This document shows positions 9,232 to 33,985 of a stretch of 33,985 nt of DNA, piece by piece (positions within the stretch are counted from its first letter, which is position 1; every line of letters begins with the position of its first letter). Under the pieces are notes generated by a model. That model made no database searches, was not told where the DNA came from, and saw only the letters and a program-made list of their open reading frames with translations. The position numbers were made by a program, and so were the translations under genes. The DNA is from a virus: the IMG/VR virus record IMGVR_UViG_3300048883_000043, positions 1 through 33,985 of that record. One strand, 5' to 3'.

Positions 9232-9378
9232 CTACTGGGCGGAGTCTGTTCCGGGTACTGAGTCCTGCCCCGGCTGGTTCACAGCAGGGAACACATCACT
9301 GATACGTGCAGGCATGTGCCGCCTAACCGCAATGATGTTGGTATAAGGCTCAGACGTTGGAGTGGGAAGGTCAGCCAT
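9232..9378 (-). CDS. 48-aa hypothetical protein
   Basis: A short frame starts at an ATG at 9376-9378, overlaps the stop of the collagen-like fibre gene by eight bases and has GGAGG nine bases upstream. It ends at a double TAG 15 bases before the next gene. The product begins MADLPTPTSEPYTN and contains VRRHMPARISDVFP, ending in a Pro/Gly/Asp-rich tail. It has no membrane segment and no family recognised. It is included because it fills the only gap in the connector cluster with good start signals. Confidence 0.6.
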   Translation of the reverse strand: MADLPTPTSEPYTNIIAVRRHMPARISDVFPAVNQPGQDSVPGTDSAQ

Positions 9379-10861
9379 TCTCAATGGCCTCCAACCGTTC
9401 AGTCAGTTCCTGAATGGCCTTGACGATGGGGGCCGTGAACTCCATGTAATTTAGATGTTTATTTCCAGTTTCGGGCTGGTCGTGTACCACTACTGGTGGA
9501 ATCCCCTGAATGTCGCAGACAGTCTCCACATCTTGAGCAACCAGTCCCCAATGAGTCTCGCCGGGAGCCTCTTTGTACTCAAAGGATAGTGGCTCCAGAG
9601 CGTTGATAAAGGCCAAGCCGGGGGATGTCCCAAAGGACTGCTTCAACGACCGATCCGAGGAGACGACGTGAGAGCCTGCGTACACAGCACCCGAGAAGTA
9701 TCCGGCAGCGTATTTAAACCAAGGAGAACCTATGATATAGGCCCCAGAGGCACTTGGGATGAGGTGTTGCGTGTACAACCCCCCTATCAGGGTTTGGGTA
9801 GTTGTCTTAGTGGTAGACACGTACTCAGAAGAGGTAGTACCAACGTAGTTAAAGGTGAAGGTGCTCCCCGACTGGGTAACCACCATTTCGGTACCACCGA
9901 TGAACGACACCAGACCGTCATTGCCGATGGCAGTCTGCGGGTTCGGACCACCAGCCGTGGTCTTAAAGGAGTAGGTAGTCCCTCCAGTTAGAGCGGTGGT
10001 CATAGTCGGGATTGCTCCGTCGGTGAAGTTCACCGTCCCCGTAACAGCCCCCGACAGCGTCAACGTCTGTGATGGATGGGTGTAGGAAGTCGACCCCCCA
10101 CCGGGACCACCGGGACCCGTGGGACCTGTGGGGCCTATGGGACCCATTGGGCCTGTGAGTCCTGTGGGCCCTATGAGTCCCGTGGTACCCTGTGTACCTT
10201 GGTTCCCCTGACCTCCTGTGGCCCCAGCGGCAGCGGCTGTGGAGGAATACTGACCTAGATTGGTCCATACAGCGGCAGCGGTCTTGATCCACACAATGGA
10301 CTGACCGTCAGCGGGTGTGATGCTGGAATCAATCCTGATCTCACCGATAGCGCCATCGGTGGACCCCGGCGCAGACGAGACCGCAGTTGGGTTGGCCTGC
10401 GGCATGACAAACACTCGCTTGTCTACGACAGAGGTGCCGTCAACGTCGGTGTCGCCTATGTTGTAGTACACCGCAGCCACCAGCATGTGCGTGGTGGAAT
10501 CGAAGTCAGGATAAAGAGCGTTTGATGCGCTCTCTCCACCATTGACCGTGGTGCCCTCAATGGCGGTGGCACTAAACACACCACCTGCCTTCTTTACCAG
10601 AATCAGAACAAACTTTGCGTTGCTACCTGATGAGGGTGCAGAGATACTAATAGAGGTGTCAGTAGACAGACTAAAGTACTCACCATTTAGATAACCAGTA
10701 ATGGCCCCAACAGATACTGTGTTGGCAGCCGTTCTGGCTACGGCTCCTCCGGTCAGAACACCTGACTTGCGGTAACCAAGGCTCTGGAAGTCGCCCTTGT
10801 CCGGTTCTGCCTGATCTGGTTCTATCCCGGTGTCCGGGCGATTGGGGACCGTAAAGGACAT
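9371..10861 (-). CDS. Collagen-like fibre with C-terminal S74 intramolecular chaperone domain
   Basis: 496 aa. Residues 1-200 are beta-rich. Residues about 212-256 hold Gly-X-Y repeats (GLIGPTGLTGPMGPIGPTG) expected to form a collagen-like triple helix. Beta structure follows, and from about 395 comes an S74 endosialidase-type chaperone: S402-D-R-S-L-K407 gives the Ser/Lys dyad, then FEYKEAPGETHWGLVAQDVE and a closing coiled coil. S74 domains trimerise fibres and cut themselves off. The gene lies between the capsid-region 102-aa gene and the neck genes, well away from the main fibre module, so it may be a head fibre or neck whisker and not a tail fibre. Fibre identity and autoprocessing are well supported; the site on the virion is inferred. 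Confidence 0.85.
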   Translation of the reverse strand: MSFTVPNRPDTGIEPDQAEPDKGDFQSLGYRKSGVLTGGAVARTAANTVSVGAITGYLNGEYFSLSTDTSISISAPSSGSNAKFVLILVKKAGGVFSATAIEGTTVNGGESASNALYPDFDSTTHMLVAAVYYNIGDTDVDGTSVVDKRVFVMPQANPTAVSSAPGSTDGAIGEIRIDSSITPADGQSIVWIKTAAAVWTNLGQYSSTAAAAGATGGQGNQGTQGTTGLIGPTGLTGPMGPIGPTGPTGPGGPGGGSTSYTHPSQTLTLSGAVTGTVNFTDGAIPTMTTALTGGTTYSFKTTAGGPNPQTAIGNDGLVSFIGGTEMVVTQSGSTFTFNYVGTTSSEYVSTTKTTTQTLIGGLYTQHLIPSASGAYIIGSPWFKYAAGYFSGAVYAGSHVVSSDRSLKQSFGTSPGLAFINALEPLSFEYKEAPGETHWGLVAQDVETVCDIQGIPPVVVHDQPETGNKHLNYMEFTAPIVKAIQELTERLEAIENG

Positions 10862-18917: not shown

Positions 18918-20489
18918 CTAAACAAAGAACGGATTCTCTGCTACGGACACTGTAGGCATAATGTCGTGTACCGTAAGACAGCAAGCCATGGATAGGCTGT
19001 CTGGGTAGTCATCAAAGGCACCCCTCTCATCTGGGGCCTCAGCCAGCAGGTAGGGGCCACGATTGATCCGTTCAAGGTCAACCATCTGCTGGTTGAACTT
19101 CCTCCAGCGCTTAGTCCGTCTCGCCTTTGAATGACCCGGAATAACCAACTGCTTACGCTGTATTAACTCTGTGAGGTGTACCCATCTCTCATTCTGTGCT
19201 TTAGCATCTGAAGACAGGGCCAGCACCTCAATGTCGGGCAGCAGCAGGGCTAGTCTTTCTGACACGGCTCCTCCTACACCTTGGGCGTCAATACCTATAC
19301 GGAGAACGTCATAGTTACGCACGAAATCCACTATCTTGAAGTACTGGGACTCCCAATCCGTGTCATGCAGTTCCAGCCAATTCAGGACACGATGCTCAAA
19401 GAAACCCAATCCGTCAGGATGATCCCAGTCAACCCACACGGCTGTAGCCACTGTCGAATCGTTGGATCTGGCCACGTCGATCCCCATGACAATGGGGGTC
19501 CTCCACCATTCAGGCACCAGCGGCATGGAGGCGTCATATAGACTATCCAACCTCTCAGAGGTGACGAACATGCCCTTCTCAAGCATCCATTCATTGAGGT
19601 AGGACATGCGAAACTCGTCAGAGTCCTCCCCAATACGCACCTTCTCCTTGTTGATGAACTTGCCGTAGTTGACGTTGTACTTAGCCGCTACCTTCCAGTC
19701 ATACTCAAAGTGAGACGCTCTCTGGGCTTTACGTTTGTTTACGTCACGTCGCTTGTTATACTGGATCATCTTATAGAAATACGATTTGTTACGAGTAGCC
19801 GTACCCGTTAGTGTGATAGTCCCATTGTTGAATGCAAGCATGGGCTTGATAGACTTCGTGATCATAAACTCGTCGGCCCCCTGTGCCTCATCCACGACGG
19901 CGTAATGGTATGTCTTAGATTCGATCTTGGCCTTCGGGTTGCAGGTCTGCATACGACAAAGGGAGCCCGAGTTCTTCAGGGTCACAATTTTACCCTTACC
20001 ACGGGAACCTCCAGAAGCCGCCTTATCATCAATCTCAGGGTCCAGCAGGAAATCCAAGGCGTGATCGCTGGTCAACCGTGATACGATACGACTAAACACT
20101 GTGTCTGCCTGATCCTCAGTAGGCGCAAACACCCCTACCCAAAATCCCTTGCTAAACTTGGATAGCCAGAGGGGATACACCTTAGACAACTTGGGCAGGA
20201 TGACCATCATGGCTGCGATGATGTTGGACAGAACTTCAGATTTACCACTCTGTCTGGTGGCAATCAAGGTCAGTTCTTCACCATCTCCGATAACAACTGA
20301 TTCAATAAACCTGTAGGCAATCGGCACTTGGTAGGGGAAGAACTCAACGGCACAGAACTCTTCAGTGAATACCACCAACTTCTTCACCAGTTCACTTATG
20401 AACTCAGAGGACTCTTCGTCCAGTTCTATGTCGTCTAGTTCTACAGCAACGTCTTCCTCTAGGACCTGTTCCTCCAACTGTACAGACAC
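18918..20489 (-). CDS. terL: Terminase large subunit
   Basis: 523 aa, starting with GTG inside TAGTG. ATPase motifs are TRQSGKS (residues 78-84, Walker A), YAVVDEAQ (196-203, Walker B with D200/E201) and LTGTAT (227-232, coupling motif). The nuclease half has MGIDVARSNDST (D338), IGIDAQGVGG (D401) and FDDYPDSLSMA (acidic residues 493-497), the three acidic sites of the RNase H-like fold. The enzyme drives DNA into the capsid through the portal and cuts the concatemer. The N-terminal 45 residues are very acidic. No obvious small terminase is adjacent; the HTH protein downstream is one candidate. Confidence 0.95.
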   Translation of the reverse strand: MSVQLEEQVLEEDVAVELDDIELDEESSEFISELVKKLVVFTEEFCAVEFFPYQVPIAYRFIESVVIGDGEELTLIATRQSGKSEVLSNIIAAMMVILPKLSKVYPLWLSKFSKGFWVGVFAPTEDQADTVFSRIVSRLTSDHALDFLLDPEIDDKAASGGSRGKGKIVTLKNSGSLCRMQTCNPKAKIESKTYHYAVVDEAQGADEFMITKSIKPMLAFNNGTITLTGTATRNKSYFYKMIQYNKRRDVNKRKAQRASHFEYDWKVAAKYNVNYGKFINKEKVRIGEDSDEFRMSYLNEWMLEKGMFVTSERLDSLYDASMPLVPEWWRTPIVMGIDVARSNDSTVATAVWVDWDHPDGLGFFEHRVLNWLELHDTDWESQYFKIVDFVRNYDVLRIGIDAQGVGGAVSERLALLLPDIEVLALSSDAKAQNERWVHLTELIQRKQLVIPGHSKARRTKRWRKFNQQMVDLERINRGPYLLAEAPDERGAFDDYPDSLSMACCLTVHDIMPTVSVAENPFFV

Positions 20490-22973: not shown

Positions 22974-25900
22974 TTACTCAACCTCTTCAATCGTTAGTCG
23001 GTACCACCCGCTGTTTGTTTGGTTGTAGACGGAAGCCTGCACCACATAGTCGCCCACAGCCATGTCCGTGCGGACAATGCGGCTGTCCCACTGATCGCTT
23101 ACGTTGTCAATCACTGGAACGCCATTGGAGCAAGCCCCTCCGGTGTTGCAGTAGGTGATCGTCGGAGTTTCATCCACATCCACGGCACTACTGGGAGGGT
23201 TGACGCAAGTGTACCCGCAGTCGTTCCCACCATCGTCGTCCGTTTCAATGGCGTTGCCAACCGTGATCTCGCTTTCGTCTCCCGAATGGTCCCCCTCATC
23301 AGAGTCCGTGTCGTAATTTAGATAGATGTACGGGTCGGCAGCCTCGTTGGCTGTACCGAACTGGGCACGAGTTAGATTTGTTTCAGCGTCGATACGGACA
23401 CTGGTTATCTCGTCCAAAGAAAACTGAATCATGTCTCGGTCGTTACGGTGCTGGGATTGCACAATGCACCAATCCCCCATGCCTCTCCAGCCACCTTCAG
23501 CGCAGCCCTCTTCCGTGTTCACGGTCGCTGTTGTCGTAGACGCTGACGTGTAAGGATCACCAACGGTAGCCGTTGTTTCGTTGTCGTTCCATGTCCTCTG
23601 GGTGGAGCAACCACTCTGTGTCCCATCTATGAAGATGCAGGACACAAAGTCAGTTCCTGTACGAGCCACCACAGTGGTCGTATCAACATGGGTCGTCGTA
23701 ACCGTTGTAGCGGTCGTGGTGTCAAGGTGCCAGTGTCCGTCGTTGCTGTTGTGGGTCAGGATTCCCGACTCGGTGGCAGCGGTCGCCGTGCCCGTCTGGG
23801 CGGTGGATGTGGACGTGGAGATCGTTTCCTGCAATGCCACGGCAGCATTCGTCGTCGTGTAGGTCGGTACGTAGACCGGTGCCACGTACACCACCACGAT
23901 CTCTTCCTCTAGTACAAAGTCGGGAAGTTCCCCTTCGGCTACCTCTGCGCTTACTTCCCCCGATTCCACAGCCTCCGTAAAGCCCGTCCAGTTGACGAAT
24001 CCTTCGGGGACTTCCCCCCAGTCTTCGTAGTAGCCGGGGTTGTTGGCTTGGTCGTAGTCTTCCCACGTTTCGTAGCCGCCGGGGGCGTCCGCACAGGCCG
24101 AGGTGTCCCTACATCCTTCGTAGGGGTCCCAACTGGGCTCTGGCTCTTCCACTGGGGGTTCTTCCCACGGATCGCCCTCTGTCTCAGGGCTATCCTCCGG
24201 CTCAGGTTCTTCTTCCTCCGGTTCTGGCGCTGGGTCTTCTTCAGTTTCAGCAGGGCTCTCCGGTTCTTCCGGGGGCCATTCTTCCTCTTCTGGGTCTTCC
24301 TCATATGTTTCGGGATCTTCCTCTAGTTCAGGCTCCTCCCATCCTAGCCCTTCTTCATCCTCCTCCCACGGACCCTCCTCGCAATCGTCACACCACTCAG
24401 CATCTTCAGGCCAGAACTCCTCTTCCCAGTCATCCCATTCCTCCTCGGTGTCTAGCCAGAACTCCTCTTCCCACTCTTCTTCTTCCCACTCTTCCTCATC
24501 TACCTCTAAGAACTCCTCCTCCCACTCTTCCCACGTTGTGGGGAAGGGCTCTTCTTCTTCCCACTCTTCCTCCTCCCAGTACTCGTCAATCCCCATCTCT
24601 TCTACGAACTCAAAGACTTCCTCTAGTTCTATTTCTTCGTTGAAGAACTCTAGGAACTCCTCCTCCTCGGCCTCAAACCACTCCTCGTCATAAGCCACCT
24701 CTTCCCACTGTTCATCCTCCCAGTACTCAGCGTCCACGCTAAGTATGACCGCCACCAAATCGAAGTCATTGTCCGTCTCCAACGGTTCCCAGTCACCTAT
24801 TTCCTCAATCTCTTCGACATACGTTTCCCCGAGAACCTCATCCAAGCGATCCTCGGCTACGGCTTGGAAGTACTCGGCGTCAGAAGCGACCCATGCTTCG
24901 ATCTCCTCTTCCTCCTGCACCACCTCTGCCAGCACCTCGTCGTAGGTGATCTCTATTTGGACAGGCTGTATTACCGGTTCTGGGATAGGGCTATCTGGTG
25001 CATCCACCGTGGGGGTGGTTGTTTCCACACGGTAAACAGATACATCAATCCCAACCTCGGCTAGAACCTCTCCCTGCTCGTCCTGAATAAACAGTTCCAG
25101 AATCTCAGGCTCGTCGGTACTTACCTCCTCTGCGAACACCAGTTCGATCTGCTGCCCCTCATTCAGTTCCACTTCAACCACCAGAGCGTCGATGGCAATG
25201 GCAACCGTGGCTTCCTCAATCTCCGCAACCTCCACTGCCTCCTCGGAGAACGAGAGGAGGGACTGAGCCTCTTCTTCCACGGCGACTTCTTCCACCGGAG
25301 CCTCTACCACCGTGGCTTCAATCTGAACTGACTTCTCTTCGTTAAGAACCAGCAACGAGAACTTCTGAGTGGCTTCCTCGGGTGCCTCTTCAACTGCCTC
25401 CTCCGGGGTGGGAACGTCAATCTCTTCAACGTCGGCGGTGAACGCCTCCACGTCCGGTGGGAGGAACACCAGCACCGGGTCAGACGTTGAAGGCCCTGAG
25501 ATCAGATAGCGGTAGGTGGCACCGGGGATCTCATTGACAAAGCCTCCGTCGTAATACCCCAATCTTTGACCACTCTCCGTGACAATCTTGAGGCTCATTT
25601 GCTTGCTTCCAGAGGCGGCAACCGTAAGCAGGGTTCCTGATTTGGTCGTCCCTTCCTGTGGACAGAACCCACAAGTGAATGGACCACCACGGACACTCAT
25701 GGGGGTCAACTCCATAGTGCCCGTGCCACCAGACCACGCTGAGGCTTCCTCGGTGGGGTTCGTCGCTGCTAGGGCATACACCCAACCGTCCTCATCTACG
25801 TCTATCCATCGCTCTGAGGTGGGCCAGTTGCTGTCGTAAACGTAGATGCGGTATCCGGTCTGGACCTGCACCACCCGGTACGGCGTGAGAGCGTGTCCAC

Positions 25901-26630
25901 CGTGCTCGGAGTAGATGCCTAGAGTGAAACCGGTGTGGTTGTTACCAGCCTCAGACTCAGCGAAGTCATACAGCAGGACTTCAGCCAGTTGTTTGGGGGA
26001 CATCTCCAGATAGGCGGACGCCTCCTGCTGAACCTCCACAGCGAACTGAGTGACATACCAGTAGGCAATCTCGGACAGCAGCGCCGGGTCGGCCTGCACC
26101 AACTGGGCTACGGTGTCGGTCCCTTGGAATGACGCCAACGTCTTCAGGTCGCCTGCCAAGCGGAGGCTGAGAACGGCTAGGCCCTCGCAGAGCCCTCCAC
26201 GCATGGACCTATTGGCCTGCGAAATCAACTGGAGGATCACAGGGTAGGGAGTACACCTGTTGTCCGTCACCTCAGAACATACCTGATCGTCCCCATACAG
26301 GCGACGAGCCATGTTTACCGTCAGGTCAGCGGGGGCCTCGCCGCCACCGAAGTTCTCAAAGGAGAAGGAATCAACCTCTGGTGTGAACGAAAGAGCGTGC
26401 CCAACTGGGGTGGGCTCCGGGGTGGGGCTATCTATGGGGGTGGTAGGGGGTGGGGGTATGGTGGTGGTAGACGGGGTAGGGCTATCTGGGGCCGTCGTAG
26501 GGGGGGTAGTAGTGGTCTCAACCACTGCTGGGAAGAGCGTAGTAGTACTAACTTCTTCTGAAACCCCGCCGGAAGAACACCCTGCAAAGAGGAGTGCCCC
26601 GGCAGTGAGTACCGCCGAGAAACGCCTCAC
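22974..26630 (-). CDS. Very large secreted lipoprotein: papain-like Cys peptidase-type domain, acidic Glu/Trp tract, PPC-like C-terminus
   Basis: 1218 aa, GTG start overlapping the upstream TGA (GTGA). Residues 1-17 are a signal peptide ending in the lipobox LFAGC (Cys18). Residues 19-75 are a Thr/Pro linker like those of actinobacterial lipoproteins. Residues about 95-300 hold a papain-like pattern: GGLCEGLAV (Cys148), GGHALTPYRV (His246) and YVYDSNWP (Asp266, Asn268), the Cys/His/Asp order of C39-like and related peptidases. Residues about 400-560 are acidic beta/helical. Residues about 560-880 are extremely Glu/Asp/Trp-rich. Residues about 900-1050 are Thr-rich. The end, with DPYIYLNYD, DDDGG, DSRIV and GWYRLTIEE, resembles a bacterial pre-peptidase C-terminal domain. 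Catalysis is inferred from motif order only. It could also be a surface adhesin or exclusion protein. It is flanked by phage genes on the same strand. Confidence 0.75.
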   Translation of the reverse strand: MRRFSAVLTAGALLFAGCSSGGVSEEVSTTTLFPAVVETTTTPPTTAPDSPTPSTTTIPPPPTTPIDSPTPEPTPVGHALSFTPEVDSFSFENFGGGEAPADLTVNMARRLYGDDQVCSEVTDNRCTPYPVILQLISQANRSMRGGLCEGLAVLSLRLAGDLKTLASFQGTDTVAQLVQADPALLSEIAYWYVTQFAVEVQQEASAYLEMSPKQLAEVLLYDFAESEAGNNHTGFTLGIYSEHGGHALTPYRVVQVQTGYRIYVYDSNWPTSERWIDVDEDGWVYALAATNPTEEASAWSGGTGTMELTPMSVRGGPFTCGFCPQEGTTKSGTLLTVAASGSKQMSLKIVTESGQRLGYYDGGFVNEIPGATYRYLISGPSTSDPVLVFLPPDVEAFTADVEEIDVPTPEEAVEEAPEEATQKFSLLVLNEEKSVQIEATVVEAPVEEVAVEEEAQSLLSFSEEAVEVAEIEEATVAIAIDALVVEVELNEGQQIELVFAEEVSTDEPEILELFIQDEQGEVLAEVGIDVSVYRVETTTPTVDAPDSPIPEPVIQPVQIEITYDEVLAEVVQEEEEIEAWVASDAEYFQAVAEDRLDEVLGETYVEEIEEIGDWEPLETDNDFDLVAVILSVDAEYWEDEQWEEVAYDEEWFEAEEEEFLEFFNEEIELEEVFEFVEEMGIDEYWEEEEWEEEEPFPTTWEEWEEEFLEVDEEEWEEEEWEEEFWLDTEEEWDDWEEEFWPEDAEWCDDCEEGPWEEDEEGLGWEEPELEEDPETYEEDPEEEEWPPEEPESPAETEEDPAPEPEEEEPEPEDSPETEGDPWEEPPVEEPEPSWDPYEGCRDTSACADAPGGYETWEDYDQANNPGYYEDWGEVPEGFVNWTGFTEAVESGEVSAEVAEGELPDFVLEEEIVVVYVAPVYVPTYTTTNAAVALQETISTSTSTAQTGTATAATESGILTHNSNDGHWHLDTTTATTVTTTHVDTTTVVARTGTDFVSCIFIDGTQSGCSTQRTWNDNETTATVGDPYTSASTTTATVNTEEGCAEGGWRGMGDWCIVQSQHRNDRDMIQFSLDEITSVRIDAETNLTRAQFGTANEAADPYIYLNYDTDSDEGDHSGDESEITVGNAIETDDDGGNDCGYTCVNPPSSAVDVDETPTITYCNTGGACSNGVPVIDNVSDQWDSRIVRTDMAVGDYVVQASVYNQTNSGWYRLTIEEVE
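24350..24750 (-). repeat. Low-complexity Glu/Trp tract within the lipoprotein gene
   Basis: The coding strand is nearly all purine-rich GAA/GAG and TGG codons (CTTCC/CCTCC runs on the plus strand). It encodes blocks such as EEEWEEEEWEEEFW and WEEWEEEF with irregular spacing, plus a CDDC pair. The tract is not a perfect tandem array. Slippage-prone triplets could change its length between strains. Confidence 0.7.
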
Positions 26631-27055
26631 TGTCGTTGCTTACGCCTATTCTGATACCAGAATAGCAAGCCCAGTATTACTAGGATACCCATAGCCACTA
26701 GGATTGCCGTCAGAGAGCCACCGGGGGCGTCTGCGGGGCTCAGAGACCAGTTCTTGGCTCCCCCTCCCAGAAGGTCCCCCTCGGCCTTCAGATCGGCTAC
26801 AGCGGCCTCTAACTGGTCAACCTGATACTGGAGGGCAGCCTCATCCGAAGACGAGTCCCACAGGAAGCCGAAGGCCCCTGTGATAGCAGCCGGTAAGCCC
26901 AGCACATAGGCGATGTTGTCCTTGGCCTTCTCAAGCAAGGACTGTGTTGACTTTAACTGTTTACCTACTGATGCCTTGGGTGAGGAGCCGGGGAGGTCTT
27001 TGAGAACCTCGTCAATCTTTTGTTTAGCGCTTTGTAGGGATTCTTGGTGGCCCAT
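26627..27055 (-). CDS. 142-aa membrane protein preceding the lipoprotein
   Basis: Residues 1-47 are a charged helix. A hydrophobic stretch lies at 48-65 (IAYVLGLPAAITGAFGFL), a coiled-coil-like segment at 70-93, then a strong membrane helix at 113-134 (GSLTAILVAMGILVILGLLF) followed by a basic tail RRKQRQ. The stop shares GTGA with the lipoprotein start, so the two are translated together. The topology suggests an inner-membrane partner of the lipoprotein, or a holin-like or fibre-associated protein. No family is recognised. Confidence 0.65.
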   Translation of the reverse strand: MGHQESLQSAKQKIDEVLKDLPGSSPKASVGKQLKSTQSLLEKAKDNIAYVLGLPAAITGAFGFLWDSSSDEAALQYQVDQLEAAVADLKAEGDLLGGGAKNWSLSPADAPGGSLTAILVAMGILVILGLLFWYQNRRKQRQ

Positions 27056-27086: not shown

Positions 27087-27590
27087 CTATTCTACCTCAA
27101 CCCATGAGGTCGTGTCTTCGTCCCAGTCGTATGACTTGCCGTCGTTGGGATACGGGGTAGGTGCTTCCCAGCGACCGCCGTCGGCGTCCCACACCCAAGA
27201 CGGGAACGGGCTAGGTGGCGTCACCCATGAGGTCGTCTCCTCATCCCAGAGGTAGCCATCGTTTGTGTTGGGGGTGGGCGGCTCCCACTCAAAGTCCTCA
27301 TTCAACACCCATGAGGCGTAAGGGTGTGGTGGAGAAAATCTGTCACCAACAGGGTCGTACACACAACCGGGACTTGCGTAGTTCTCTCGCAGCGGAGTTC
27401 CCCCATCGGGCAGCCGATGTGAGGGGTCCACATGAACACCATTGCTGGTGTTGAACGAAGTCTGAATCCAAGTGCCGCCGAACCCAAGATCGTCGGCTAG
27501 GAACTCCTGTCCACGGTGTTCGTTATCGTCGCCAACAACAAGCACTCTGATAACAATGTTGCTTTCATCGACTTCTGCGAAATGTGCCAT
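27087..27590 (-). CDS. Marine-phage MAHFAEVD-type protein with Trp-rich tandem repeat
   Basis: 167 aa from the ATG at 27588-27590, 13 bases past the upstream stop. An in-frame ATG 33 bases earlier would overlap it. The N-terminus MAHFAEVDESNIVIRVLVV, then LGFGGTWIQTSFNTSNGVH, NYASPGCVYD and FSPPHPYASWVLNEDFEW, is a family often found among cyanophage and other marine-phage structural genes. The C-terminal 75 residues hold two copies of a unit built as SWV...W.PPTPN.NDG..WDE.T.SWV, probably glycan- or fibre-contact modules. It lies at the end of the fibre module, so a distal fibre or accessory virion role is likely. Confidence 0.75.
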   Translation of the reverse strand: MAHFAEVDESNIVIRVLVVGDDNEHRGQEFLADDLGFGGTWIQTSFNTSNGVHVDPSHRLPDGGTPLRENYASPGCVYDPVGDRFSPPHPYASWVLNEDFEWEPPTPNTNDGYLWDEETTSWVTPPSPFPSWVWDADGGRWEAPTPYPNDGKSYDWDEDTTSWVEVE

Positions 27591-27603: not shown

Positions 27604-28797
27604 TTAGTTCGGTATCCGAACAATAACTATGCCGCTGCCGCCGGTCATATTGCTGCCTATCTGAGAACCAGCGCCGCCGCCCGTATTCGCAGTCCCGTTT
27701 GTGCCTTCCGTCAGCGCCGCATACCTACTGCCGTTGCCACCGCCGCCATTCCCCAACGCCTGATACTCTGTTGTTCCGTGGAGGTTCCAGTTTGAGCCAC
27801 CACCGCCGCCACCGTATTCGTCGGTCGTTCCATCGAAGTAAGTGTTGTCTTGTCCGTCACCGCCAGACCCACCGTGCAAGTTGTTCAGGTTGGCCGAGCA
27901 GGAGCCACCTAGGGATGTAGAACCACCACCGCCGCCACCGCCTGCGAAGTTATAGTAATACCCGTTGCAACCGGTGTGACCCTGATAGCCGCCCTCGCCG
28001 TAACCGGACCTGCCGTTGCCGCCGCCATAGGCACCGAATCGGTATCCGCTTCCACCACCGCCGGAGCCACCATACGCTGAGCCGTGTCTCCCGCTACTGG
28101 AAGCGTTGGTACCCCCGCCTCCACCAGCGCTAGTCTGCCCCGTGAATGTGGTGGAACTACCACTGCCGGAACCAGTTCCCCCTGCACCGATGCCGATTGA
28201 GAATGTTCCCGTACCTGTGGTGAATCCAGTAACCACATTTACGCCACCGCCACCACCGGCACCGGGTGCCTCCCCTGAGCCGCTTGATGTGTTGATGGCC
28301 GATGAGCCACCGCCGCCTGCGACTATCATCACATCGGCAGCCGCACTAGCCGGGTTGGATACGATGGTGATTGAACCGCTACCGGTGAACTTGTACGACT
28401 TGTACCCGCTGTAAGACGTAACAGTCGCTCCAGACGATGTAACAATCATCACGTTGGTAGTCGTCAGGTTCGGAGCGTTACTTACCGCACCAGCACCCTT
28501 CTCGTTGATTGCCGATACCCGATAGTCGTATCGGGTATTGGCCGTCAACCCTGTATCGCTGTAAGTGGTGCCGGTTGAACTGGTGTCAGCCACCTCCGTT
28601 GACCAAGACCCACCACTATTGGTGCTTATTTCGATCTTGTAGCCAGAAATGATGCCACCACCCGTGTCGGATGGTGCCGACCAAGACAGGTTGATGTCTT
28701 CGTTAGAGTTTGACCCCGCTGACAGCGACAGGGTGCCCGGTGCGCCGGGAACCTTGATGCCGCCCTGACCGGCGACTACAGAGAGAAACATGGACAT
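27604..28797 (-). CDS. Tail fibre: fibronectin type III plus glycine-rich domain
   Basis: 397 aa. Residues about 16-110 form an FN3 domain (PGTLSLSAGSN, INLSWSAPSDTGG, GYKIEISTNSGG, YDYRVSAINEKGAGAVS). Residues 115-160 lead into a Gly-rich beta region to the end, with VMIVAGGGGS, GGGGGVNVVTGF and GSGIVIVRIPN. This 'mivAGGGg...GsGivivri' frame is that of glycine-rich phage tips, where polyGly sandwich loops carry receptor-binding variation. The gene follows an Mtd_N-type fibre gene, the same order as the second Gly-rich gene at 31705-32586. Confidence 0.8.
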   Translation of the reverse strand: MSMFLSVVAGQGGIKVPGAPGTLSLSAGSNSNEDINLSWSAPSDTGGGIISGYKIEISTNSGGSWSTEVADTSSTGTTYSDTGLTANTRYDYRVSAINEKGAGAVSNAPNLTTTNVMIVTSSGATVTSYSGYKSYKFTGSGSITIVSNPASAAADVMIVAGGGGSSAINTSSGSGEAPGAGGGGGVNVVTGFTTGTGTFSIGIGAGGTGSGSGSSTTFTGQTSAGGGGGTNASSSGRHGSAYGGSGGGGSGYRFGAYGGGNGRSGYGEGGYQGHTGCNGYYYNFAGGGGGGGSTSLGGSCSANLNNLHGGSGGDGQDNTYFDGTTDEYGGGGGGSNWNLHGTTEYQALGNGGGGNGSRYAALTEGTNGTANTGGGAGSQIGSNMTGGSGIVIVRIPN

Positions 28798-28801
28798 CGG
28801 G

Positions 28802-29716
28802 CTAACCGATGTTTCCGATTAGCGCCCATGTGTTAGTGCCGGTTTTGACAGCCGCAACAGTTGTATACCGGTCGCCGCAAGTCAACGTACCGTCCTTAGA
28901 AGAAAGTTCCGTGACCCCTGTACCGGCAACGAACGTGAGCGTTCCCGTACCGTACCGTTCGTAATAGATAGTCGTACCGACCGCAAAAGCCTGAGCGGAG
29001 TTCTGCGGCAAAGTAACCACCGCCGTACCCGTTGTCCGAACATACTTGTTCTCATCTCCGACAGCAGGAGCGATAGCATCGGCGTCTGTGGTGACATTCA
29101 GTTGGTTAGTGGTGGTGCCGGTCACCGTCAGGTTCCCGGAAACCGTCAGCCCGGTCAAGTTGCCAACAGAAGTGATAGCCGACTGGGCGGCACCGGTGAC
29201 GGTCGCTGCCGTGCCGGAAGCGTTACCGGTGACATTGCCAGTCAAAGGACCAGCGAAAGCAGTCGCCGTCAACGTCCCAGTACCAGCGTTGTAGGTGGCC
29301 CCGGCATCAGTCTTCGGGGCCAGATCACCGGTAGCCGACTCAAACAGGCCCACGAAACAAGTTGTATCGGTAGTATCAGCAACGGTAATGGCAGTGTGGG
29401 TCATCGTCGCCCACTGGAGCCCTGTGCTCTGGCCTGAGGCGGCAGTCAGTACCTGACCGTTAGAGCCCACCGTTAGTTTGGCTACAGTGTCGGCGGCTGT
29501 GGCAGCAATGATGTCGCCCTTGGCATCAACCACTGTATTGCTGATAGCAGTACTAGGCAGTGACGAGTAGCCTAGGGAGGTCCATGCGGTTGACCCATCA
29601 CCGATCTTGTATTTATCGGTATCAGTTTCGATAACCAACTCGCCAACGGCAAGGGTTGGGTTGGCCGAGGTCCACGCTGCTGCGGTACCTCGTCTTAGTT
29701 GAATCTGTACGGCCAT
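28802..29716 (-). CDS. Mtd_N-type tail fibre protein
   Basis: 304 aa. The first 55 residues, with MAVQIQLRRGTAAAWTSANP and ETDTDKYKIGDGSTAWTSLG, match the N-terminal domain of major tropism determinants and related fibres, which anchor trimers to the tail. The rest is Thr/Ala/Gly-rich beta repeat (GPLTGNVTGNASGTAATVTG, VTGTTTNQLNV), typical of fibre shafts, then a C-terminal strand set with FVAGTGVTELSS. About 48 of the first 55 residues match the paralogue at 32586-33407. The C-terminal halves differ, as is common for receptor-binding parts. Confidence 0.8.
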   Translation of the reverse strand: MAVQIQLRRGTAAAWTSANPTLAVGELVIETDTDKYKIGDGSTAWTSLGYSSLPSTAISNTVVDAKGDIIAATAADTVAKLTVGSNGQVLTAASGQSTGLQWATMTHTAITVADTTDTTCFVGLFESATGDLAPKTDAGATYNAGTGTLTATAFAGPLTGNVTGNASGTAATVTGAAQSAITSVGNLTGLTVSGNLTVTGTTTNQLNVTTDADAIAPAVGDENKYVRTTGTAVVTLPQNSAQAFAVGTTIYYERYGTGTLTFVAGTGVTELSSKDGTLTCGDRYTTVAAVKTGTNTWALIGNIG

Positions 29717-29725
29717 TATTTACTC

Positions 29726-30013
29726 CTATTCGGGCGGTGTGGGCCAGTCTGGTAACGTCGAAACCTTGTCGGACTGGGCCGGGTAGTCCCGAAGAGCCTG
29801 ACGGTAGGTAGCCCATTCGGCCACCTTCTCTGCGGTCAATGGCGTATCAGCGCCCTGCGTCCAGTCGGAGCCACGCAACTGGCCGTCACGCTGACTCCTA
29901 ACATGACGCAGGTCCAGATCGGCAGTCTCACCCCGTGCGGCCATCTCGTCCAGTTCGGACTGGCTGAGTTCTATGTACTCACCGTTCACAACCTTGTATC
30001 TTGGTTCTGCCAT
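29726..30013 (-). CDS. Tail-fibre assembly chaperone
   Basis: 95 aa. VRSQRDGQLRGSDWTQGAD followed by WATYRQALRDYPAQ and the final DWPTPP matches the phage tail assembly chaperone pattern 'R..RD.lL..sDWTq...w..YRqaLRd.p......WP..P'. Such proteins help fold or attach fibres and are encoded next to them. The start overlaps the upstream stop (TAATG). The related gene at 33417-33815 holds the same position before the other Mtd_N fibre. Confidence 0.85.
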   Translation of the reverse strand: MAEPRYKVVNGEYIELSQSELDEMAARGETADLDLRHVRSQRDGQLRGSDWTQGADTPLTAEKVAEWATYRQALRDYPAQSDKVSTLPDWPTPPE

Positions 30014-30552
30014 TATGCCGCTCCGTTGATTCCGTAGATTGTCAGGCTTGAATACTGAACAAAGTTGTCGGTACCCACAAACATATTGATTCGATCTATC
30101 GCCGCTGTGCTACTCCAAACACCTGCCGTTACTTTGATACCACCCTTATGTTCAGCGGCATCATTGTCGGGAGTTGAAGAAAGCAATAAGCATTGTTTCA
30201 TGTGAGTGGTGTTTGAGTAGTTGTAAATCCACATCTCAAAACTAGAAAACGTGTCTGCCAAACAACTAGCGGCGGCACACTCAATGTCATCAAACGAATC
30301 CACCCCATTCTGTTTGTAGCCAGTAGGAGTAACATTGCCGCCACCGCTGTAAATGTGAACTGTGTCGTAGTTGGTGCCGGTGTCGCCATTGAACCGTATT
30401 TCAGCGTTCGTTCTTGTAGTGGCAGCCTTGTCTGACCTGAGGCTTCCCATCAGATACAAATGATCGTAACTACTGGAAATACTCGTCACATCTATCATGG
30501 TCGCGCTACCTGCGCCCAACTCTGTGTGGTTTACCACATTCCAAACTGCCAT
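30013..30552 (-). CDS. Small beta-sandwich-like fibre protein, copy 4
   Basis: 179 aa. It holds SSYDHLYLMGSLRSDKA, EIRFNGDTGTNYDTVHIYSG, WIYNYSNTTHMKQCLLLSST and, at the end, YSSLTIYGINGA. This 'hL.l..s.R...iR.N.DtgtNY...i...G....lTlYGI' layout is shared with the two genes upstream and the partial gene at the right edge. The order of beta strands suggests a jelly roll. No catalytic residues are visible. The probable role is a fibre tip or carbohydrate-binding module. TAATG couplings join it on both sides. Confidence 0.7.
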   Translation of the reverse strand: MAVWNVVNHTELGAGSATMIDVTSISSSYDHLYLMGSLRSDKAATTRTNAEIRFNGDTGTNYDTVHIYSGGGNVTPTGYKQNGVDSFDDIECAAASCLADTFSSFEMWIYNYSNTTHMKQCLLLSSTPDNDAAEHKGGIKVTAGVWSSTAAIDRINMFVGTDNFVQYSSLTIYGINGAA

Positions 30553-31097
30553 TATGAACTCTTTATCCCGTAGAGGGTAATCGTAGACCCACGCACCGTG
30601 GGGTAAGGGTCCGTCGCTGTTTCCAGATCCATCTGTATTGTGATAGAGGTAACAGCCGCCGTGTTATCCCACACTTGTACCGTTCTGTCACAGTTCCCAT
30701 AAGTAGGAGGCGAGTTCAGAGGTGCAAACCAGTCTGAGGAAACTGTTGTGTTCTTGTTGGCGTTCAAGTAATCGTAGATAGTGATTCTTCCATACCCATA
30801 CTGTGCCGCTGCTCCATATTTCAGGCTTGGAGTGTAGTTCTCAAAGGAAAAGCATTTGGTATTTCCCACATAACTCTGACCGTAAAGATTGCCACCAGAG
30901 GCGTGTATGCGTCGCTCACTGTAGTTGGTGCCAGTGTCAGCGTTCAGAAGCATTTGCGTGTAGGTGGTTGAGTTTGTACGACCACCTCTCATAGAGACAA
31001 TCAACTCCAAGTGTTCATACCCTGCAATGGAACTGAATGTAGCCACCAGCGCATTTGCTTCTAGGTTGATCGTTTCGATTGCCTCAATGATTGCCAT
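30552..31097 (-). CDS. Small beta-sandwich-like fibre protein, copy 3
   Basis: 181 aa from the ATG at 31095-31097, which overlaps the upstream TAA (TAATG); a start 30 bases earlier would run into the neighbouring gene. It shares with its neighbours YEHLELIVSMRGGRTNST, LLNADTGTNYSERRIHASGG, ITIYDYLNANKNTTVSSDWF and TITLYGIKSS. It is a divergent paralogue from tandem duplication. Amino-acid similarity is clear in the N-terminal and C-terminal motifs, weaker in the middle, where binding loops would lie. Confidence 0.7.
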   Translation of the reverse strand: MAIIEAIETINLEANALVATFSSIAGYEHLELIVSMRGGRTNSTTYTQMLLNADTGTNYSERRIHASGGNLYGQSYVGNTKCFSFENYTPSLKYGAAAQYGYGRITIYDYLNANKNTTVSSDWFAPLNSPPTYGNCDRTVQVWDNTAAVTSITIQMDLETATDPYPTVRGSTITLYGIKSS

Positions 31098-31708
31098 TAG
31101 GCCACCATCCTTGGGAGAACGCCCCACAAATCGAAACGGCTATTGGCAATAAAGTTGTAAGTGCCACTAGTATCCGCATAGATCTGTATTTTGTTGATGG
31201 CTGCGGTTTCTGTCCACACAACCCCCGATCCCGTCACTGTTTGATATGAAGCATTAGATGTCGCATTGGCATGATGAGTGAAAACGTTTTTCCATTTACC
31301 AGAGTTGATGTCGGAAATACGAGTGGTGCTTCCACCAAACTCGGTAGCGCCGACACCAGTAGAAACAGCATCCCCTATGTAAGCACCTGTGTATCCCGCA
31401 TACCACTGTGCATGAGCGTCACCTGAACCGCTGTCGTAATACTTTTCGAACGGATAATTCGTAGAAGCATCATCATTGAAACGAGCCAAAATGTTGTATG
31501 CCGCTGAAGCACTCGGATAGTCATTATTGGCGTTGGTGATTATGACGAGATCCATGTATTGCGACCACTCGTTCGCACCAGTGGAGGAAGTCCAAGTAAC
31601 GCTGTTGGCGTCACCTGTCAGAACGTCTGTTTGTAAAGCGACCCATGCCTCCGAATCGGTGAGAACACCATCTACGATGTATGCGGGATCGGCGGTGTTT
31701 ATCGTCAT
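31097..31708 (-). CDS. Small beta-sandwich-like fibre protein, copy 2
   Basis: 203 aa, the longest of the family. QYMDLVIITNANNDYPSASA, ILARFNDDASTNYPFEKYYD and the closing SRFDLWGVLPR correspond to 'hL.l', 'R.N.D...NY' and 'S..tLyGi' in the other copies. Its start shares ATGA with the stop of the Gly-rich gene. It is more diverged than copies 3 and 4, so it may recognise another ligand. Receptor binding is inferred from module position. Confidence 0.65.
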   Translation of the reverse strand: MTINTADPAYIVDGVLTDSEAWVALQTDVLTGDANSVTWTSSTGANEWSQYMDLVIITNANNDYPSASAAYNILARFNDDASTNYPFEKYYDSGSGDAHAQWYAGYTGAYIGDAVSTGVGATEFGGSTTRISDINSGKWKNVFTHHANATSNASYQTVTGSGVVWTETAAINKIQIYADTSGTYNFIANSRFDLWGVLPRMVA

Positions 31709-32586
31709 ACTGTCACCTCGTATCGGATAATCACAATGCCCTCAGAGCCGCCGCCCGAAGGGTCGGAGGCAGACGCACCGCCGCCTCTGGCCCCGCCGCC
31801 GCCTGACCCCGTGTTGGGAACGGCGTCCTTGCCTTCGTTGCCGTCATTCGATCCATCGCCACCGATGCTAGAACCACCCGCACCCTTGATGCCGCCAGTA
31901 CCACCTCCTCCGCCGCCACCGCCACCGTAGGTGACAGTCGCAGCGGTGATACCCATTTGTGCCTGTCCGATGCCACCAGCACCGCCCGTGCCAGCCGATG
32001 CGCTTGTCCCAGCGGCACCGACACCGCCTTCGCCACCTCCACCACCACCGCCGTTGTTCGATCCCGTGCCACCACCAGCGCCACCTGCCGACCCACCGCC
32101 CGTAGCCGAACCGCCCGCACCTGCGCCCGCTCCACGGCTACCGCCACCGCCACCACCTGAAGCGCCAGCGCCACCCGCTACCGAGTGGTGGGCACCGTAA
32201 CCGCCACCAGCAGAAGTGGTACCCAACGCGACACTGGTGCCGCCTACGTTGCCGTCCACCCCTGAGGTCACCGCAGCACCGCCAGCATTTACGGTAACCG
32301 TGTAAGTGCCAGCGCTCACGGCATAACCCGTTCCCGTAGCGACTTCTCCCGCTCCGCCTCCACCACCAGCGTTGCCGCCGCCAGAACCACCCGCTCCGAC
32401 GATCAGCCAGTCCACATCAGCCGTACCAGCAGATACAACGAAGTCGCCTGAACCACGGAACGCATGAACACGGTACGTCGTACCAGAATCAACGTACTGC
32501 GTGATGATCCCACCAAACGCCGTAAAGACAGCACCGCCAGCACCGGCAGCGGCCATCAACCCGAACTTAGCGGAACCTACAGGCAT
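31705..32586 (-). CDS. Glycine-rich tail tip/adhesin
   Basis: 293 aa. The first 70 residues are beta (YRVHAFRGSGDFVVSAGTAD) and the rest is dominated by Gly/Ala runs (GGGGGGSRGAGAGAGG, YGGGGGGGGGTGG), ending GGSEGIVIIRYEV. The frame and final 'GivIiRy.v' match the Gly-rich fibre domain also seen at 27604-28797. PolyGly sandwich folds often form phage adhesin tips. The DNA is a long GGN run, so replication slippage could vary loop lengths. TAATG joins it to the Mtd_N gene upstream. Confidence 0.75.
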   Translation of the reverse strand: MPVGSAKFGLMAAAGAGGAVFTAFGGIITQYVDSGTTYRVHAFRGSGDFVVSAGTADVDWLIVGAGGSGGGNAGGGGGAGEVATGTGYAVSAGTYTVTVNAGGAAVTSGVDGNVGGTSVALGTTSAGGGYGAHHSVAGGAGASGGGGGGSRGAGAGAGGSATGGGSAGGAGGGTGSNNGGGGGGGEGGVGAAGTSASAGTGGAGGIGQAQMGITAATVTYGGGGGGGGGTGGIKGAGGSSIGGDGSNDGNEGKDAVPNTGSGGGGARGGGASASDPSGGGSEGIVIIRYEVTV

Positions 32587-33407
32587 TAGGAGAAGTCCTG
32601 TCCACTAACTGCTCCGTACCAGATCACTCCGGCGTCGATTGTTGTAAAGACGAGGATGTCTGTACGACTAGCAGTAGTTGTAAGGGTGGGGGCGGTTCCG
32701 CCAGCCCACTTCACCGTGTTGGGCCAAGTGGCCGTGCGTGAACCAGTCCCATCCTGATTGAGGAACAGGGTGAATGAACCCGAGGTTCCAGAAGCGGGTG
32801 GGGCCGAGAACGTGAACGTGCAGTTCGCCGTCAGGGTCACGTTGTGGACATTGCCATCGGTCAGAGAGATGGTGTCCGTTGATCCAGATGTCGCATTAGC
32901 AACACAGGTTTCACCAACGTCCTTGAGGACCGGGGCGCTGATGATCTGATCGGCGGCAACAATAGCCCCCGAAAGAGTCCCGCCAGCCTTGGGCAATGCT
33001 GCGGCAGCCGTGGTAGTCGTAGAGGTCAGGACCGCATCCCTTGTCGCAATGTCTACGCCGTCAAAGGTACTATTGGTTGTGATTGCTCCTGTCATAGCAC
33101 CACCTGCTTTAGGCAATGCTGCGGCAGCCGTGGTGGTTGTGGATGTTAATACACCATCCCTTGTGGCTACGTCTACACCATCAAATGTACTATTAGTCGT
33201 AATGGCCCCAGTCATGGCTCCACCAGTAAGTGGCAGTACGTTACTGGGCAGGGAGGAGTAGCCCAGCGAGGTCCACGCTGTCGTGCCGTCACCGATCTTA
33301 TACTTGTCGGTATCGGTTTCGATAGCGAACTCGCCCTGAGCCAACGTGGGGTTGTTGCTGGTCCAGTTGGCGGCGGTGTCTCGCCTTAACTGTATTTGTA
33401 CAGCCAT
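32586..33407 (-). CDS. Mtd_N-type tail fibre protein with 40-aa tandem repeat
   Basis: 273 aa. Residues 1-55 (MAVQIQLRRDTAANWTSNNP, ETDTDKYKIGDGTTAW) are the Mtd_N-like anchor. Residues 62-101 and 102-141 are near-identical 40-aa units starting GGAMTGAITTNSTFDGVD, a 'GGxMTGaI' shaft repeat common in fibres. The rest is a beta domain with VHNVTLTANCTFTFSAPPAS and a Trp/Gly-rich end, similar to trimeric fibre heads that bind cells. It is the paralogue of 28802-29716. Confidence 0.8.
   Translation of the reverse strand: MAVQIQLRRDTAANWTSNNPTLAQGEFAIETDTDKYKIGDGTTAWTSLGYSSLPSNVLPLTGGAMTGAITTNSTFDGVDVATRDGVLTSTTTTAAAALPKAGGAMTGAITTNSTFDGVDIATRDAVLTSTTTTAAAALPKAGGTLSGAIVAADQIISAPVLKDVGETCVANATSGSTDTISLTDGNVHNVTLTANCTFTFSAPPASGTSGSFTLFLNQDGTGSRTATWPNTVKWAGGTAPTLTTTASRTDILVFTTIDAGVIWYGAVSGQDFS
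32985..33224 (-). repeat. Two 120-bp tandem units in the fibre gene
   Basis: The two copies (32985-33104 and 33105-33224) encode 40-aa units differing at two positions and diverge mainly at third codon positions, e.g. gggcaatgct / aggcaatgct. The duplication is therefore older than the last strain splits but still alignable. Confidence 0.75.
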
Positions 33408-33416
33408 TGCTTACTC

Positions 33417-33815
33417 CTATTCGGTAGCGGCGTAAGCCGTGTCATATGCCGCTTGGGCTTCTTCGTCAGTGCCGCCACCGTCGATGGATGACTGTCGGGC
33501 AGCATCACCAGCGGTCACCTTGCGAGTGACTTTAGCGGTGGGCGGGTCTTCGGGCCACACAACCTCAGATACACGGCTGTATGTCTGAGGGATGGCTTTC
33601 AAAGAAGTCCTGTAAGTGCGCCACTCCTCAGCAGTGTGATCTCCAAGTGAGGCGTCACCGATCTGAGTCCAGTCGGAAGCCGACAACAAACCGTCACGCT
33701 GGCCTCTGACCATGTTCAGGTCCAGATCGTGCGCTTCCATGTCAGCGGTCCTCTGTGCGATCTCCGCTTCCGAGAGGTCTATATAAACCCCGTTCACAAC
33801 TTTCTGTAATGCCAT
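33417..33815 (-). CDS. Tail-fibre assembly chaperone, longer copy
   Basis: 132 aa. VRGQRDGLLSASDWTQIGDA, then WRTYRTSLKAIPQ and VVWPEDPP give the same chaperone pattern as 29726-30013. It has 38 extra C-terminal residues, Ala/Asp-rich and helical. N-terminal VVNGVYIDLSEAEI also matches VVNGEYIELSQSEL of the short copy. It lies ten bases before the Mtd_N fibre start and is likely specific to that fibre. Confidence 0.85.
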   Translation of the reverse strand: MALQKVVNGVYIDLSEAEIAQRTADMEAHDLDLNMVRGQRDGLLSASDWTQIGDASLGDHTAEEWRTYRTSLKAIPQTYSRVSEVVWPEDPPTAKVTRKVTAGDAARQSSIDGGGTDEEAQAAYDTAYAATE

Positions 33816-33817
33816 AA

Positions 33818-33985
33818 CTATGCTCCCGTGATTCCGTAGAGGGTGAACGAAGAATATTGAATCATTCCCGAGTTGGGTTCCGACACACCAATATCAGTGA
33901 TCGCTTCTAGGTCAGACCACAATCCCGCTGTCTGAGTCAGATACCATTGACTACCCGTTGTGGAGTTATTCTCCACCGCCGTCTC
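33818..33985 (-). CDS. Small beta-sandwich-like fibre protein, copy 1, partial (N-terminus beyond window)
   Basis: An open frame of 55 codons enters from the right edge and ends in TAG two bases before the chaperone start. The visible end, QTAGLWSDLEAITDIGVS then MIQYSSFTLYGITGA, matches the C-terminus of the gene at 30013-30552 (VWSSTAAIDRIN then YSSLTIYGINGA). It is therefore another member of the family, and like that copy it is directly followed by a chaperone and an Mtd_N fibre. Confidence 0.75.
   Translation of the reverse strand, partial: ETAVENNSTTGSQWYLTQTAGLWSDLEAITDIGVSEPNSGMIQYSSFTLYGITGA

Follow-up and report, generated by a model that had tools for sequence, protein, structure and literature searches.

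Single-gene mosaicism in a tandem tail-fibre operon of an uncultured, probably marine phage

Tetart and colleagues reportedly described in 1998, for the distal tail-fibre locus of the T-even phages with its gp38 adhesin, exchange within one adhesin gene. In the TSP1-4 tailspike clusters of the Ackermannviridae, receptor-binding genes are exchanged by homologous recombination in conserved 5' ends, and gene duplication has been proposed as the origin of the clusters (PMC11414711). Modules of a fibre and its cognate chaperone, known from Alteromonas phages, are common to distantly related marine phages, and lectin-like heads are predicted for them (PMC10579305). Here, we describe a tail-fibre array in the viral record IMGVR_UViG_3300048883_000043, a fragment of 33,985 bases (hereafter, the window) from an uncultured, probably marine phage. 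The array contains two tandem copies of a unit with a fibre gene, a gene for a Gly-rich protein, three genes for small beta-sandwich proteins (designated C, D and B) and a gene for a tail-fibre assembly chaperone. We consider it likely that the array is a modular tail-fibre operon in tandem, which arose by old expansion or acquisition, whose alleles are mosaic through recombination at gene junctions, and whose products are exchangeable receptor-binding parts.

The array resembles the Ackermannviridae clusters in that several receptor-binding genes stand together with conserved 5' ends and variable distal parts (PMC11414711). However, those clusters have gp10-like XD anchors and one gene per spike, whereas the present locus joins six genes in one operon, three of them for small lectin-like paralogues, and whole small genes appear to be exchanged at their junctions; we could not find gp10-like XD domains on the cassette genes by Pfam or PHROG match. 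The Alteromonas modules likewise pair a fibre with a chaperone, but their lectin-like domains lie within the fibre proteins, whereas C, D and B each have a gene of their own and are exchanged singly, in a unit that can be tandem. A Gly-rich tip protein is shared, by description, with the T-even gp38 locus, from which the array differs in that whole genes of the triad are exchanged. To our knowledge, a triad of the C-D-B type has not been described, and the literature, of which subscription papers were mostly outside the coverage, yielded no account of three small lectin-like genes that keep a near-fixed order and are exchanged singly. In short, recombining or duplicated receptor-binding genes and modules common to marine phages are already known, and the new feature is an operon of near-fixed order, probably for receptor binding, that is exchanged gene by gene.

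A six-gene unit in tandem

Related loci are given L numbers here. L002 matches positions 28935-33985 of the window with 99.9% identity over 5,051 bp and adds 1,487 bp beyond the right end of the window, so that the two sequences probably belong to one phage. This extension places C1, D1 and B1 ahead of the first chaperone, and L002 itself ends within C1. The combined order is C1-D1-B1-chaperone A, mtdA-glyA-C2-D2-B2-chaperone B, and mtdB-glyB-phrog_7759 followed by a flank gene of 142 aa, with all cassette genes of the window array on the minus strand. Based on this order, the repeat unit is composed of six genes, namely, the fibre with its Mtd_N domain, the Gly-rich protein, the sandwich proteins C, D and B, and the chaperone. 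The chaperone is also the last gene in the single-unit phages L116, L158 and L166. In the relative L006, the region upstream of the first triad contains a Gly-rich gene and a fibre gene whose N-terminus differs, and a third triad is not present there.

An earlier note on the window had recognized the sequence of sandwich protein, chaperone, Mtd_N fibre and Gly-rich tip twice, at 33985-31705 and at 30552-27604. Its order and coordinates are correct, and its two tandem adhesin-like sets are supported. The note had taken the repeat for a four-gene cassette with two additional paralogues; these paralogues do exist, but L002 identifies them as C2 and D2 of the second set, and the unit has six genes. 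The phase of the cassette is accordingly replaced by fibre first and chaperone last, as in the single-unit phages, and the D2 start proposed at 31127 most likely has to give way to the ATG at 31097, which is the start of the family in the alignment.

Of the first set, the window lacks C1 (L002:2-565, also truncated) and D1 (L002:565-1089); B1 (33818-33985, recognized by its paralogy with B2) is cut by the window end and complete in L002 (1089-1655), and chaperone A (33417-33815; Phage_tail_APC, PF16778, E-value = 1e-15; phrog_4912, tail fiber assembly) is the last gene. The second set starts with mtdA (32586-33407; PF18454, E-value = 4e-15), a fibre with an Mtd_N anchor, and continues with glyA (31705-32586), a Gly-rich protein and probable fibre tip (Gly_rich_2, PF21722, E-value = 6e-8, above the cut-off; phrog_2295). 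It is completed by C2 (31097-31708), D2 (30552-31097), B2 (30013-30552) and a chaperone B of the short type (29726-30013; PF16778, E-value = 3e-17); D2 overlaps C2, and B2 overlaps D2, by 1 nt each. Then follow a second Mtd_N-anchored fibre in terminal position, mtdB (28802-29716; PF18454, E-value = 6e-14), and glyB (27604-28797), an Fn3 and Gly-rich protein (fn3, E-value = 3e-12; Gly_rich_2, sub-threshold E-value = 2e-4; phrog_2295, E-value = 3e-20) after which no sandwich triad comes. The families Mtd_N, Gly_rich_2 and Phage_tail_APC are known from tail genes; PF16778 is present on both chaperones, and the chaperone comes after the fibre in the operon, as in a tail-fibre operon. As an observation on the Gly-rich genes, the leader of a Gly-rich protein (MTVGAAKFGLFAAAGAGG) runs straight into a C-type sandwich at L014:2780-3364 and replaces the Gly-rich gene, a natural tip swap.

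The C, D and B proteins of the window gave no matches in Pfam and PHROG, and C1, D1 and B1 gave nothing above the cut-off in Pfam. AlphaFold models of B2 and C2 are confidently all-beta (pLDDT 94.8 and 89.2, respectively), and B2, with a putative lectin arrangement of the ConA-like type, was placed loosely by Foldseek and VIA-align near ConA-like sandwiches, which include galectins, legume lectins, ERGIC-53 and the C-terminal domain of GH32 enzymes. Credible sequence relatives of B were not found in the PDB. When B2 was compared with predicted viral structures, 122 matches reached an E-value of 1e-3, several of them in proteins that bear the names Fn3, glycine-rich or Stf-repeat fibre. Phage proteins in BFVD (e.g., A0A6J7WWM7 and A0A6J5Q1Y0) share the predicted sandwich fold, with a TM-score of up to 0.88 to B2, although their sequence identity is just about 13-29%. 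C, D and B are thus predicted lectin-like sandwiches, the viral matches support a role at the fibre tip, and the cassette products may bind receptors, presumably glycans.

Single-gene mosaicism and conserved junctions

An identity of 75% or higher in C, D or B was found in 85 pairs of units; in 63 of these, another of the three is below 55%, and all three are high in only 16. C1 is 86% identical to its counterpart in L025, whereas D1 is 46% identical; B1 is about 88% identical to that of L139, whereas C and D are 42% and 49% identical. The blocks of high identity stop near gene boundaries. When blocks had to be 300 nt or longer and at least 85% identical, 27 of the 32 informative ends fell into junction zones, where a uniform null would place 0.16 of the left and 0.27 of the right ends. 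The first breakpoint test had been conditioned on gene-level identity, which pulls block ends to gene boundaries, and these counts come from the rerun without that condition. Blocks reach into the conserved junctions regardless, and what counts is their failure to continue into the adjacent gene.

The junctions themselves are conserved, also at synonymous sites. Where two alleles are less than 60% identical, the match at four-fold degenerate sites is 0.29-0.31 in the interior of C, D and B; near the ends of these genes, over the first 10-20 and the last 5-15 codons, it is mostly 0.5-0.76. The 3' end of the chaperone gene, a natural control, showed no such rise. Phage recombinases with activity on short, diverged homologies are known (PMC3945230), and conservation at the junctions is what recombination at shared junctions would predict. 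Based on these patterns, the following course can be proposed: the whole unit would have been expanded in tandem or acquired long ago; single C, D, B, chaperone or fibre genes would then have been replaced by alleles from other phages; the replacement would have proceeded through recombination, presumably homologous, at the short conserved gene junctions; and the products would serve as exchangeable receptor-binding tail parts.

The order of the genes is nearly fixed. In 94 loci with strong sandwich genes, C was followed by D in 83 of 85 cases, and D by B in 87 of 100; a chaperone came after 80 of the 96 strong B genes, with ten further B genes at contig ends. Because detection of the triads had demanded the order C-D-B, this check was made separately without that demand. 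Overlaps of exactly 1 nt were found in 77 of 83 C/D, 78 of 83 D/B and 59 of 63 Gly/C junctions. Near-fixed order and 1-nt overlaps together suggest that C, D and B act jointly. One could go further and suppose that all three are obligate partners in a single hetero-oligomeric, lectin-like tip, that their translation is coupled and that each is exchangeable via the junctions, so that unrelated backbones would share a pool of alleles and combine them into receptor-binding heads, further tandem units being spare sets; we put this forward only tentatively, as a possibility that is more doubtful than not.

Several points weigh against exchange at the junctions of a receptor-binding operon. The share of block ends in junction zones drops when the filters are loosened, to 43 of 57 (0.75) at 80% identity and to 76 of 141 (0.54) at 75%. 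The junction zones were fixed after the first breakpoint test and so give descriptive support rather than a pre-planned test, and the unit pairs lack statistical independence. In contigs assembled from metagenomes, as here, mosaic pairs of nearly 100% identity are possibly chimeras, though blocks of 80-97% identity are hard to explain in this way. Conservation of the junctions may derive partly from translational coupling or translation signals. The PDB fold match of B2 is weak (Z of 7.5 at most), is tied among several ConA-like families and may reflect a mere common arrangement. Finally, the phage is uncultured, and its array is known from metagenome sequences and predicted models.

The explanation that survives best beside junction recombination takes up one of these points: the junctions would be conserved as translation signals, and the swaps would be products of illegitimate recombination, filtered by selection for intact genes. 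The consistent 1-nt overlaps and the conserved start regions agree with it, and selection for intact frames would likewise leave the surviving breakpoints near gene boundaries. However, synonymous conservation extends 15-20 codons into C and D, beyond what a ribosome-binding site needs, and is lacking at the 3' end of the chaperone gene; we regard this explanation as rather unlikely.

Histories of the two copies

The two copies are clearly paralogous. C1 and C2 are 41% identical (z = 29 against shuffled sequence), D1 and D2 40% (z = 23), B1 and B2 40% (z = 37) and the chaperones 46% (z = 28), so that the repeat exceeds chance by z-scores of 23-37, and every C, D or B resembles its own counterpart more than it does the sandwich proteins of another type. 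Among the window, L006 and L085, the two Mtd positions appear to be orthologous. The number of triads per contig is two in L006 and L008, three in L014 and one in most others. Since relatives carry one to three triads and the Mtd positions look orthologous, an older tandem expansion of the unit is likely. One observation on copy number concerns L116 and L128, which are parts of one contig of 93,140 bases (G004) with two triads at a distance of about 37 kb, of which one is interrupted by the contig ends; the B genes of these triads are 100% identical over the short part they share, and C and D are 56% identical.

The orthologous-looking Mtd positions would also fit an old duplication without later exchange, in which the copies split before the phages did. 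This account is contradicted by discordant histories inside the unit, namely those of C1 and D1 with respect to L025 and of B1, C and D with respect to L139, and appears very improbable.

Block duplication within the lineage, followed by divergence only, had been proposed in the earlier note and is consistent with the tandem gene order found twice and with the likeness of the C, D, B and chaperone pairs at 40-46%. Trees were built from 83 C-D-B triads in 78 contigs, the low-complexity Gly-rich proteins being left out. The window copies constrained as one clade were rejected in all four trees (C, dlnL 99, AU p = 0.019; D, dlnL 103, AU p = 3e-5; B, dlnL 243, AU p = 4e-5; chaperone, dlnL 57, AU p = 5e-4), so that a lineage-specific block duplication was discarded as a candidate. 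The nearest relatives of the first set are in four different contigs (C1 in L025, 86%; D1 in L111, 69%; B1 in L139, 87-88%; chaperone A in L016, 83%), and an origin of the copies from different phage lineages is what the earlier note had named as refuting a block duplication. In the second set, C, D and B are all nearest to L077 (56, 59 and 81%, respectively), and chaperone B to L111. mtdA is 93% identical to L003, and mtdB is 95% identical to L085 and L081 over aa 1-166. Most genes are thus far more similar to a gene of another contig (C1, 86%; B1, 87%; B2, 81%; mtdA, 93%) than C, D, B and the chaperone are to their counterparts in the other unit (about 40-46%).

The two copies are no more alike than alleles taken at random from different contigs, whose median identity is 43-45% (C, D and B) and 62% (chaperone). 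The N-termini of mtdA and mtdB are 87.3% identical over 55 aa (83% over 58 aa) and divergent beyond, which bears out the figure of about 87% and the differing distal parts in the earlier note. This value was read there as a sign of duplication, but it is the norm of the family, as 47% of the Mtd_N pairs from different contigs match or exceed it. Both identities are at the level of cross-contig pairs and therefore do not point to duplication in the lineage, which we judge very improbable. In the likeliest history, the unit was expanded in tandem long ago, or a second unit was acquired, and alleles were replaced afterwards; the present alleles appear to have been swapped gene by gene since the expansion.

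Assembly chimeras of co-occurring strains could produce near-identical pairs that differ in one gene near contig ends, as seen in L134/L135 and L142/L147. The conclusions do not draw on such pairs, of nearly 100% identity and close to contig ends; identity in most blocks is 75-97%, which is below chimera-like near-identity, the pattern recurs over many contigs, and L002 agrees with the window at 99.9%. As a source of the mosaics, chimeras are thus highly improbable. The near-identical L142 and L147 (C, 100%; D, 99%; B, 47%) show a further peculiarity, in that the B-side end of L142 corresponds in part to the D region of L147, where an assembly error is possible.

The array resembles Mtd of Bordetella phage BPP-1 in having Mtd_N at the fibre N-terminus (PMC3567102), and differs from it in that Mtd_N is the only Pfam domain of mtdA and mtdB; other Mtd domains were not found in the Pfam scan. 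Diversification by a diversity-generating retroelement, which acts on Mtd of BPP-1 and which this domain (PF18454) brings to mind, has a negligible chance, since variation goes by whole-gene alleles and a reverse transcriptase (PF00078) was not found in six related records (38-100 kb, possibly incomplete).

Backbones, neighbouring genes and meaning of the array

L003 has a terminase 96-97% identical to that of the window, yet it carries one triad whose C, D and B alleles are 32-45% identical to those of the window. The terminase of L079 is 89% identical, and there are no triads upstream of the flank gene it shares with the window. Relatives of the window terminase were found in two of ten records with sandwich cassettes, and a detectable sheath domain in one of nine. 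Several of the cassette records are fragments, and the long ones are L116 (93 kb, with a long tape-measure gene) and L144 (81 kb). Because terminase and sheath are scarce among these records and L116 and L144 are long, the cassette probably sits on unrelated backbones.

The window terminase (18918-20489, minus strand) is 46% identical to those of Streptomyces phages of the LuckySocke/BRock group, with which the order terminase-portal-capsid-sheath-tube is shared, which hints at a possible actinobacterial host. In a prophage-based host search, relatives of D and B were not found in a cellular genome collection of 84,980 species. Among 50,697 phage records, D2 had no matches, and B1 gave a weak match alone, to two unannotated records of one phage.

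The array is closed, in the window and in L006, by a phrog_7759 protein (27087-27590, minus strand; E-value = 3e-41). Beside it, the 142-aa flank gene (26627-27055, minus strand) is a conserved backbone anchor next to the variable locus, with 92% identity in L003, L006, L079 and L081; its product has a hydrophobic C-terminal segment and a sub-threshold Gram_pos_anchor match, and the relatives carry different arrays. Between the array and the terminase, a protein of 1,218 aa (22974-26630, minus strand) has a lipoprotein-like signal (LLFAGCSS) and long Glu/Trp-rich stretches; it gave no Pfam or PHROG matches, and in L006 and L079 long parts of it are conserved at 88-90% identity. A further fibre gene with collagen-like repeats and Peptidase_S74 (9371-10861, minus strand) lies outside the array, between capsid and tail genes. 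Genes of metabolic type adjoin or replace the array in two relatives, namely, a tryptophan halogenase (phrog_2928) at L014:10337-11791 and a 2OG-Fe(II) oxygenase-like gene at L079:514-6313.

Receptor-binding genes help to set the host range of phages, and the array bears on how they are renewed in uncultured marine phages. A repeated adhesin set within one genome need not imply duplication in that genome, and the three beta-sandwich families, which have no Pfam or PHROG entry, are common in viral contigs. If exchange at the junctions is true, renewal would follow a simple rule, in which one lectin-like gene is swapped per event at fixed junctions, and a combinatorial evolution of host range would become testable from metagenomes.

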